Source: Bacteroidia bacterium
Lineage (GTDB): Bacteria > Bacteroidota > Bacteroidia > J057
Length of the DNA: 64,000 nucleotides
Direction of reading: 5' to 3'
NCBI GenBank assembly: GCA_019695295.1
Contig: JAIBAH010000015.1
Coordinates: 1-64,000, forward strand
In this document: positions 35,605 through 54,951 of the stretch, in pieces
Position numbering within the stretch: the first letter of the stretch is position 1
Layout: the number at the start of each line of letters is the position of its first letter
Position numbers and translations under genes: made by a program
The notes under the pieces: model-generated
The model's input: only the letters and a program-made list of their open reading frames with translations
Databases searched by the model: none
Told to the model about the DNA's origin: nothing

Positions 35605-37962
35605 CTATTCTCTGATGAGTTTGATTGCTTTTACCACTTTATTGTCCAGTTTCAGGTAACCTGTATAGATTCCCTGTGGCAAATCCAGTGAGTAATTACG
35701 CTGCCCTTCAAAAACCGGAATCGATTTCAATTGTTTTCCCTGAATATCATATACCGACAGTTCCGCTTTGTCAAAATCTGCACTTCCCAGAGAAAGTGTC
35801 AGGGAGTGGGTAAAGGGATTCGGATACACAGCAAAGGAAACATTCTGCGCAAAATCTGTAATGTCCACGCTGTTTTGATTGGGTGCTCCTTTTACAAAGA
35901 AATAGTCAAAAGCCCCTTCGGTAATATGTCCGGGAGTAGCGTCTTCTACTTTCAAAATCATTTTCATACTGGCAGAAGGCGTAATAAAATTAGATACGAC
36001 AATACTGTCATAATTCCATGAATTGTGTACCCCCGAATAATCCTTGACCTGTACCGTTTGAGTACCGTCCGTAAGGGATAGAATAAAATGATCGTTAATC
36101 GCTCCCTGATTGGCCAGGTCTGCATTAAAGAACCACCAGGAATAAGTGATAACGGGATTATTGTAAGCAGTAAGATCAAACTCAGGGGAAGTGAGTTCTG
36201 TATAGCCATTATCCACATCATCATCTCCGACATTTCCTCCGCCGTTACCCGTTACAAAGGCATTCACGCCAATGTCGTTTGCAGCATCATCATCCGGGTT
36301 GGAAGCACTGCCATTTTGAAGAGAAGTTCCTGCCGGTTCTCCTCTTTCCCAGTTGCCACGGGGAGCAGTTCCGCTTTCAGTCCACCCAAAATCGAAATAG
36401 GCGTCATCATAATATCCCTGATCCAGATAAATCGTATCATTCAGGCCGGTAATAGCACTTACATTAATTTTTTGGGTGATATATCCCCATTTTCCAACCA
36501 CAAGGTCATAATTTCCGGCAACGATTGAGCCCGCAACGGTACCGTTGGCAGCAGTAGAATAATTGTAATCAAGGCCGTTATTGTCTGTCATAAATACAGT
36601 AGCAGCAGATACCGGATTGTAAGGATACCAGGATTCTACCACATTTACCGAAGCACTGACAACGCCGGCCGGCACCAACTGAATATTCTGAGTGGTAGTA
36701 ACTCCGTTGGAAAGATTTACGGTAATCGTCTGAGAAATATATCCTGGTTTGGAGTAAGTAACCTGATAACTGCCTGCGGTAGCGGTTCCGGTAGCATAAT
36801 TTCCGTTTGTAAGAGAATTATCGGATGCTAAAGAAGCGAGGGCGATAGTCGCTCCGGAAATCGGGGCTGAAGTATTGGCGTCAGTTATCAGCCCTTCAAG
36901 GTAACACCCTCTGATATAATTGGGTCTTAATACAAAAAGGCCTTCTTCCATATCAGATACGATGATATTGCCGGACGGGAAATAATTGAATACCCCCCAT
37001 GCGCCATTAAATCCGCCTCCGCTCATAGGGCTTGTATCATAATATCCCACCTCAATCATATTGTTGGGGTGAGCTACGTCAAAAATCACTACTCCATCCC
37101 TGTAATAACTTGTAACGCCATAATCATTGATTACGTGAATATTATGCGGAATAGAAGCCCCTGCACTCAGGCTTGAGCGGATTTTGTCGAGTTCCTGAAT
37201 ATTCATTGGGTCAGTGATATCCCACGCATACACATAGGCTGCATTTTTCTCATCTGTAGTGAAACAGGCAGTGCTTGCGTCATTTAACCATGCATTGTGT
37301 GTAAAGGAATTGATATAGGAATGTGTATTTACATCCACCGGCGCATTTTTATTGGTCACATCGATAATGGCGAGCAATCCGTCATTAATCTGTCCGGCGT
37401 ACATGGTATTTCCTCTTACATAACAGTCATGTACATAACGGGTTGTATATTCCCCGATGTATTCCGGTCTCCAGGGGTCATTGTGAAGGTCCAGCACCTG
37501 AAATCCTCCGTTTCCTACATTGGTTCCGTTCAGATAAAGGTATCCGTCCGTTTCAGAAACAGTGTGGATTGTTTCGTTGCCGTGAATAATCGTATCCTTG
37601 TAAGGTGCACTTCCGGGTAAGCCTGATAAATCCACAATCCTCAAACCATCTCCGCCTTCATTGCCGATATAAGCATAATCTCCATAAACTTTTACTTCTC
37701 TCCAGATTGTTTGAATACCGGGTAAAAATTGAACTTCCACAGGGTTGGCAGGGTTGGCAAGACTCACAATAGATACGCCATTTTCAGTACCCACCACTGC
37801 GTATTCGGTGCCATCAGGTGCCACGTACCCCCAAAGATTGGATAGCTGATTACCGGGATAGGACACCTGCCCCAAGAAAGTAACATTGAGGGAACCGGAG
37901 GTTTGCGCCTGAATGCCAAAAATAGAAACAATAAAAAACAGAAATAGTAATTTTCTTGTCAT
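35605..37962 (-). CDS. Choice-of-anchor B family T9SS-secreted protein
   Basis: 785 residues. Signal peptide (LLFLFFIVSIFGI, cleavage near QAQ). Residues about 20-350 are a beta-propeller of LVIP-like repeats (YAVVGTENGVSIVSLANPANP, AYIGNEGGDGLRIVDLSG), the choice-of-anchor B domain. Two carboxypeptidase-regulatory-like domains follow (about 355-510; GLITDANTSAPISGATI), then a jelly-roll-like segment (520-690), and a T9SS type A sorting domain at the end (YPNPFTHSLTLSL, IYTGYLKL). It is secreted and surface-attached or released; likely adhesive or binding, with no catalytic residues seen. A minus-strand -7-like TATATTTG is at 38010-38003. Confidence 0.85.
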   Translation of the reverse strand: MTRKLLFLFFIVSIFGIQAQTSGSLNVTFLGQVSYPGNQLSNLWGYVAPDGTEYAVVGTENGVSIVSLANPANPVEVQFLPGIQTIWREVKVYGDYAYIGNEGGDGLRIVDLSGLPGSAPYKDTIIHGNETIHTVSETDGYLYLNGTNVGNGGFQVLDLHNDPWRPEYIGEYTTRYVHDCYVRGNTMYAGQINDGLLAIIDVTNKNAPVDVNTHSYINSFTHNAWLNDASTACFTTDEKNAAYVYAWDITDPMNIQELDKIRSSLSAGASIPHNIHVINDYGVTSYYRDGVVIFDVAHPNNMIEVGYYDTSPMSGGGFNGAWGVFNYFPSGNIIVSDMEEGLFVLRPNYIRGCYLEGLITDANTSAPISGATIALASLASDNSLTNGNYATGTATAGSYQVTYSKPGYISQTITVNLSNGVTTTQNIQLVPAGVVSASVNVVESWYPYNPVSAATVFMTDNNGLDYNYSTAANGTVAGSIVAGNYDLVVGKWGYITQKINVSAITGLNDTIYLDQGYYDDAYFDFGWTESGTAPRGNWERGEPAGTSLQNGSASNPDDDAANDIGVNAFVTGNGGGNVGDDDVDNGYTELTSPEFDLTAYNNPVITYSWWFFNADLANQGAINDHFILSLTDGTQTVQVKDYSGVHNSWNYDSIVVSNFITPSASMKMILKVEDATPGHITEGAFDYFFVKGAPNQNSVDITDFAQNVSFAVYPNPFTHSLTLSLGSADFDKAELSVYDIQGKQLKSIPVFEGQRNYSLDLPQGIYTGYLKLDNKVVKAIKLIRE

Positions 37963-53293: not shown

Positions 53294-54595
53294 TCAGCCC
53301 GCTACAATTTCAGGGGTTACAGTAACCCACCCATCCGCAGTGACTTTATCCAGTACAACTTCCATTGTCTGATTGACCCAGTCTTCCCGATAAGGAGTCA
53401 TTACTTTTATGTAATTCTCTGTAAAGCCAAACATCAGGCTTCCTTCTTTTTCCGCCTCCCAAAGAACCGTTCCGGCTGTATTTTCGAACTTACGGTAAAA
53501 TTCCATTCTTTTTTTATCGGACAAAATCCGCAGCATTTTATTTCTTTCGGCGCGTTCATGACGGGGGACAACGCCTTCCATCTCAGCGGCAGGAGTATTT
53601 TCCCGCTCAGAATAGGGAAACACATGAAGATAAGCGATATCCAGTTCATTCAGAAACTGATAGGTATCCAGAAAATGTGCCTTTGTCTCACCCGGAAATC
53701 CTACGATTACATCTACCCCGATACAGGCATGCGGCATTACTTTTTTTATCATCTCCACTCTTTCTGCATACAAAGCTCTTTTATACCTTCTGCGCATATT
53801 CCCCAGAATTTCGTCATTACCACTTTGAAGGGGGATATGAAAATGGGGCATAAATCGCCGGGATTCTGCAACAAAACGGATAATTTCAGCCGTCAGCAAA
53901 TTGGGTTCGATGGAAGAAATACGAATTCGTTCAATTCCCTCCACCTTGTCCAGTTCACGGATTACGTCCATAAAAGTGTGAGGCTGATCTTTTCCGTAGT
54001 CCCCGATATTCACTCCGGCAATCACGATTTCCTTTATCCCATTTTTCGCAATTTCTTTTGCATTCCGGATAATATTTTCAAGAGAATCGCTTCTGCTTTT
54101 TCCTCTTGCCAGCGGAATCGTACAAAACGTACATTTATAATCACACCCATCCTGAATTTTCAGGTAAGAACGCGTTCGGTCTCCCATCGAAAAAGCGTCC
54201 TTAAACACATTTACTTCCTGGATTCCGGAATTAAAGACACAGGGATTTTCGTGTTTTGTCATGTCTCCAATCAGTTCCACTACCCTGAATTTATCTTTTG
54301 CCCCTACAACCAAATCTACTCCCGGTATTTCTGCGATTTCATAGGGTTTGAGCTGAGCATAGCATCCCATTACCACGATGTAGGCTCCGGGATTACGGCT
54401 CAGTGCATTTCTTACCGTATAGCGGCATTTTTTATTGGCTTCCTCCGTCACAGAGCAGGTATTAATGACATACACATCTGCTTTTTCCTCAAAAGCAACT
54501 TTCTCAAAACCCGCATTCAAAAACTCCCGGCCAATAGTGGAAGTTTCTGAAAAATTGAGTTTACAACCCAATGTATGAAATGCAACAGTATTCAC
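53294..54595 (-). CDS. mtaB: tRNA ms2t6A methylthiotransferase MtaB
   Basis: 433-residue radical-SAM enzyme that adds a methylthio group to t6A37 of tRNAs reading ANN codons. N-terminal UPF0004 domain with three Cys (HTLGCKLN, CSVTEEANKKC, GCYAQLKP), radical SAM CDYKCTFC (CxxxCxxC) with SRS-type following residues, and a C-terminal TRAM-like tail. GTG 54595 is preferred: a promoter with both elements lies 20 nt upstream (54615-54646) and the alternative frame start at 54694 precedes it. Divergent from dnaB with a DnaA-box cluster between. Confidence 0.9.
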   Translation of the reverse strand: MNTVAFHTLGCKLNFSETSTIGREFLNAGFEKVAFEEKADVYVINTCSVTEEANKKCRYTVRNALSRNPGAYIVVMGCYAQLKPYEIAEIPGVDLVVGAKDKFRVVELIGDMTKHENPCVFNSGIQEVNVFKDAFSMGDRTRSYLKIQDGCDYKCTFCTIPLARGKSRSDSLENIIRNAKEIAKNGIKEIVIAGVNIGDYGKDQPHTFMDVIRELDKVEGIERIRISSIEPNLLTAEIIRFVAESRRFMPHFHIPLQSGNDEILGNMRRRYKRALYAERVEMIKKVMPHACIGVDVIVGFPGETKAHFLDTYQFLNELDIAYLHVFPYSERENTPAAEMEGVVPRHERAERNKMLRILSDKKRMEFYRKFENTAGTVLWEAEKEGSLMFGFTENYIKVMTPYREDWVNQTMEVVLDKVTADGWVTVTPEIVAG

Positions 54596-54614
54596 GAATC
54601 CTAAATTTAGACTG

Positions 54615-54646
54615 CAAAAGTAACTATTTCCGGTCTTTTCTGCAAA
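54615..54646 (-). promoter_or_regulatory. Bacteroidota-type promoter for mtaB
   Basis: On the minus strand TTTG (54646-54643), 20 nt, then TACTTTTG (54622-54615). It lies just left of the DnaA boxes. Confidence 0.7.
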
Positions 54647-54720
54647 TTTTTCACAAAATACACGGACTCTCCCCTTTCCGGATTTGAAAACCACTAAAGC
54701 ACTTTTTCAGGTAACGCAAA

Positions 54721-54796
54721 TTATCCACACCGGCATTTGCAGTTATCCACATAGTGTCTGTAAAACGGGTTTCTGCCTATATTCAATTGTGGATAA
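54721..54796. other. Three-DnaA-box cluster (origin candidate)
   Basis: Perfect TTATCCACA at 54721-54729 and 54743-54751 on the plus strand, and TGTGGATAA (the same box inverted) at 54788-54796. The first is flanked by GCAAAT/ATTTGC inverted repeats. AT-rich, unwinding-prone sequence follows up to dnaB. I noticed no other perfect box elsewhere in the window, only single-mismatch copies. Confidence 0.75.
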
Positions 54797-54951
54797 TTTT
54801 TAGTAAAATAAAAAACAGGGAGAAACCGGCAAAAAAGAAAGGTGGCATTTGTCAGGGTGCAGTATTTTTCATAATTTTGATTCCTTTTTTTCGTAAAAGA
54901 AAAAAGAATTTCGTATCTTTCGTCTTCATTGTTTAAAACGTAGTTTATTTT

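Follow-up and report, generated by a model that had tools for sequence, protein, structure and literature searches.

Organization of the mtaB–dnaB intergenic region

The window analysed in this study is a stretch of 64,000 nucleotides that comprises nearly the whole of contig C199 (64,338 bp) of the Bacteroidota assembly G000 (4.9 Mb, 223 contigs). In this window the replicative helicase gene dnaB and the divergently oriented gene mtaB are separated by an intergenic region of 356 bp, in which the three perfect DnaA boxes reported by an earlier sequence-only reading were recovered as exact matches on the +, + and − strands, all lying within 76 bp (Table 1). The G+C content of the intergenic region is 34% and falls to 20–26% near dnaB (50-bp windows).

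Table 1. Genes, DnaA boxes and predicted promoters at the mtaB–dnaB locus (window coordinates).
Feature	Position	Strand	Details
mtaB, tRNA methylthiotransferase, 433 aa	53294..54595	−	TIGR01579, above curated cut-off; start most likely GTG at 54595
Predicted mtaB promoter	54615..54646	−	TTTG N20 TACTTTTG; prediction only; divergent from dnaB promoter
DnaA box 1	54721..54729	+	Exact TTATCCACA; sequence and spacing the same in same-genus G002
DnaA box 2	54743..54751	+	Exact TTATCCACA; start 22 bp from box 1 start
DnaA box 3	54788..54796	−	Exact TTATCCACA; start 45 bp from box 2 start
Predicted primary-sigma (Bacteroidota) promoter of dnaB	54848..54879	+	TTTG (−33) N20 TAATTTTG (−7)
dnaB, replicative DNA helicase, 526 aa	54952..56532	+	TIGR00665, 560 bits (cut-off 385)

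One further exact copy of TTATCCACA was found in the window, at 36209 inside a coding ORF, and the genome as a whole contains 90 exact copies, or about 1.2 per 64 kb, so that the density of 0.5 per 64 kb assumed earlier was too low. The trio is, as had been claimed, far beyond chance: the box density of the genome predicts about 1e-4 triplets within 80 bp, Markov resampling of the intergenic region yields 0.003 exact boxes compared with the three observed, and an exact box pair at the spacing of the trio occurs only at the dnaB site in this genome.

Using the Bacteroidota promoter consensus (PMC7366714), one promoter was predicted for each gene, with the three boxes situated between both. The trio lies 52–127 bp upstream of the −33 element of the predicted dnaB promoter, which is one of only five matches of the TTTG-N20-TAATTTTG type on the + strand of the 64 kb and the −7 element of which is kept in G002. 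The DnaA protein encoded by the same genome (contig C12) contains the N-terminal domain (PF11638), the ATPase domain (PF00308) and an intact box-binding domain (PF08299).

Conservation of the boxes upstream of dnaB

The sequence-only reading had suggested a comparison of the dnaB upstream region among relatives, and this comparison bore out the conservation of the boxes. Within 300 bp upstream of dnaB, 42 exact boxes were found in 27 of 127 Bacteroidota loci, compared with 0.35 boxes for permuted motifs; when one mismatch was allowed, there were 145 boxes in 84 of the 127 loci, compared with 10.8 boxes in 10.2 regions, and none of 150 permuted motifs matched the real count. After similar regions had been collapsed, 75 of 113 upstream regions carried a box (permuted motifs 9.4, maximum 33), related loci persisting after this step so that the counts are not independent events. 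Control regions were box-bearing in 8 of 110 cases at −1300 to −1000 and in 20 of 113 cases inside dnaB. About one third of the 127 loci have no recognisable box with up to one mismatch in the 300 bp upstream.

In the family of the window's genome, all ten tabulated dnaB upstream regions contain between one and five boxes. Within the genus, G002 has the trio at the same spacing, and the box bases of the intergenic region are identical in G000 and G002 (27/27), whereas only 129 of the remaining 305 bases (42%) are shared (Fisher p = 4e-10); no box with up to one mismatch was found upstream of dnaB in a further genome of the genus, G001.

The location of the boxes between two divergent predicted promoters would also fit regulation of mtaB, or of both genes. 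However, mtaB adjoins dnaB in only one of 123 loci, that of the window itself, and the boxes stay upstream of dnaB elsewhere, G002 included: 82 loci without mtaB beside dnaB still carry them. Because the upstream neighbour changes and mtaB has this place in the window alone, the boxes track dnaB and not mtaB, which is a chance neighbour. Regulation directed at mtaB, by itself or jointly with dnaB, is thus very improbable, and joint control could concern the window's genome alone.

The number, orientation and distance of the boxes differ from lineage to lineage. Only 33 of the 127 dnaB upstream regions gave a promoter match under strict or relaxed criteria, and relaxed matches can be due to chance; 30 loci combine such a match with boxes, and all of their boxes begin upstream of the −33 element. 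The commonest box position in Algoriphagus and its relatives is −24 from the −33 element, mostly as a single box. These observations bear on the alternative that the trio is a site for DnaA titration or nucleotide exchange resembling datA or DARS, which usually involve IHF or Fis, placed beside dnaB by chance. Three boxes at a fixed, conserved spacing would suit such a site, and some strong DnaA sites of M. tuberculosis outside oriC have no evident gene-related role (PMC7738170), but the persistence of boxes upstream of dnaB despite the changing neighbour, together with the fixed promoter distance in Algoriphagus and its relatives, where there is often a single box, makes a titration site improbable.

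Position of the trio relative to oriC

The sequence-only reading had also proposed the dnaB site as chromosomal oriC; DnaA would then melt the adjacent AT-rich DNA and load DnaB. Three exact boxes in 76 bp flanking AT-rich DNA are compatible with this proposal, and the cumulative GC skew does have a local minimum near 54–56 kb in the window. However, this minimum coincides with the switch in gene direction from mtaB (−) to dnaB (+), with only 9 kb to its right, and the rise in skew at dnaB was attributed mainly to gene direction.

The own genome is too fragmented for a direct measurement, and GC skew was sampled in 20-kb stretches along the main contigs, not continuously, of four complete or nearly complete relatives: the same-family genomes G005 (7.54 Mb) and G007 (8.16 Mb), the Cytophagaceae genome CP030886.1 (G060, 4.17 Mb) and Persicobacter sp. 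CCB-QB2 (G062, 3.84 Mb). The skew turns from negative to positive at 3.72–3.80 Mb in G005, 6.76–6.90 Mb in G007, 1.8–2.0 Mb in CP030886 and 3.2–3.4 Mb in Persicobacter, the sampled skew being weak in G007 and CP030886. The distance from dnaB to the origin so defined is 2.9, 4.0, 1.9 and 1.3 Mb, respectively, which places dnaB at 66–97% of the path from the origin to its antipode in all four genomes; dnaB is therefore terminus-proximal and the skew minima are remote from it.

In G005 and G007 the skew minimum coincides with DnaA-box clusters upstream of thiL-xth-DUF4175-(anti-sigma-like)-ybeY-mnmG, and the skew also flips locally within the 20-kb stretch. G003, G004, G006, G008, G009, G010 and G012 have comparable clusters, either upstream of thiL or in the corresponding region. 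Persicobacter has a box cluster near mnmG. In CP030886 the DUF4175 gene is at the skew transition, and the stretches read contained no box cluster.

When the surroundings of many exact boxes in the own genome were read, an array was found directly upstream of nadA (C218:19–639), with 14 boxes of up to one mismatch in about 630 bp compared with 0.34 expected. C218 begins with ~268 bp that overlap the start of C92 in reverse orientation (L290:1–811 for C218 and L293:1–350 for C92), and therefore the assembly broke inside the nadA box region. In G002, 12 boxes lie upstream of nadA, and most spacings between neighbours are the same as in G000 or differ by one. The nadA site is thus the best candidate for oriC in both G000 and G002, and probably the origin of the former; since the GC skew around C92 and C218 gave no clear flip in the own genome, this candidate rests on the boxes and their conservation. 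In G001, oriC is probably located at a cluster of 11 exact TTATCCACA copies in 565 bp (C68:7192–7756), on a contig separate from those of its nadA and dnaB.

Other positions in the genus were considered and rejected. The family position upstream of thiL does not apply, as thiL has moved (beside recR in G000) and has no cluster upstream; the DUF4175–ybeY block on C96 has no box cluster; and the box pairs C134:8270/8333 and C135:8295/8664 of the own genome lie inside ORFs, with no further near-consensus boxes.

The dnaB site shares the 9-mer and the AT-rich intergenic setting with both the genus candidate and the family oriC. It contains three exact boxes, whereas the genus candidate extends to 12–14 boxes over about 630 bp (14 at nadA in the own genome) and the family oriC usually has 5–8 boxes within 600 bp, mostly upstream of thiL-xth-DUF4175-ybeY-mnmG. 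The boxes of these origins are mostly degenerate, while those at dnaB are all exact, and the family clusters map to the skew minima in G005 and G007, where dnaB does not. A chromosome is expected to have a single main origin, and the stronger, conserved array lies at nadA in both G000 and G002; G002 separately keeps the boxes at dnaB. With this array in the own genome and with skew minima 1.3–4.0 Mb from dnaB in the relatives, an origin at dnaB is scarcely credible. The more general statement of the sequence-only reading, that oriC in Bacteroidota need not adjoin dnaA, holds here and agrees with a previous report (PMC4755523). Perfect boxes grouped as closely as this trio next to a replication gene therefore do not necessarily mark an origin, and the present results also supply oriC candidates for a genus with fragmented assemblies.

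Several further box clusters were observed in the relatives: a second exact-box trio within 32 bp in Persicobacter (L261:1071–1102), 8.6 kb from the mnmG cluster; a G005 cluster outside oriC that adjoins gcvT and a MaoC-like gene (L163:10131–10530); and clusters, likewise outside oriC, inside ORFs for oligopeptide-binding proteins or at their 5′ ends in G005 (L140:6502–6562) and G007 (L180:9183–9255).

Proposed control of dnaB by DnaA

We consider that the trio serves the dnaB promoter as a regulatory site bound by DnaA and is not an origin, with a probability of about 0.8. DnaA would bind to the trio upstream of the −33 element and the bound protein would alter transcription of dnaB, probably activating it, and the supply of helicase would thereby follow the amount or the nucleotide state of the initiator. 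The boxes and how they are conserved, their association with dnaB and not with mtaB, their place relative to a predicted promoter and an oriC candidate elsewhere are read from the sequence, whereas the binding of DnaA and the sign and timing of the regulation are inferred. The DnaA-controlled dnaB promoter named as the second option of the sequence-only reading has gained support from phylum-wide co-occurrence, comparative footprinting and promoter position, while binding and the effect on expression stand as predictions.

Activation is favoured because the boxes sit upstream of the promoter and not over it. DnaA represses several promoters elsewhere, including its own (reviewed in PMC8203912), and might likewise repress dnaB; this variant appears rather unlikely, as the boxes begin before the −33 element wherever a promoter is recognisable and as weaker DnaA binding in M. 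tuberculosis accompanies lower dnaB expression (PMC7738170).

A regulatory link between DnaA and dnaB has already been reported in Caulobacter and mycobacteria, and the best-supported reading of the present site would extend it to Bacteroidota, for which we found no report of DnaA control of dnaB in the open-licence literature. In M. tuberculosis, the region upstream of dnaB is bound by DnaA, and dnaB is under-expressed in a mutant whose DnaA binds there less (PMC7738170). Both sites lie upstream of the replicative helicase gene and apart from oriC; the likeness, drawn without regard to box arrangement, spans different phyla, and binding was measured there whereas it is predicted here. Expression of dnaB in Caulobacter crescentus is DnaA-dependent, with predicted boxes upstream (Hottes et al., 2005, as reviewed in PMC8203912), and the gene belongs to a G1–S DnaA-dependent set; this operates with an alphaproteobacterial promoter and cell-cycle network, in contrast to the Bacteroidota-type promoter and exact-box trio described here. 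The DnaA-regulated promoters of dnaA, nrdAB and dnaN (reviewed in PMC8203912) similarly have a few boxes upstream of a replication gene, the difference being that the helicase gene would be the target in the present case.

If DnaA does control dnaB here, the link from initiator to helicase would be much more widespread, and a defined promoter would be at hand for studying the coupling of initiation and helicase supply. As a more tentative suggestion, somewhat short of even odds, this control may be an ancestral Bacteroidota circuit that persisted as origins and neighbouring genes changed place, in which case the initiator would set the supply of the helicase that it loads from a dnaB gene that is terminus-proximal in the four genomes with skew data.

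In addition, the DnaB matches are interrupted around residues 186–236 in G001 (C502/C93) and G004 (C69, L221), where the open frames are longer (695 and 861 aa), a pattern that a putative intein in DnaB would produce.
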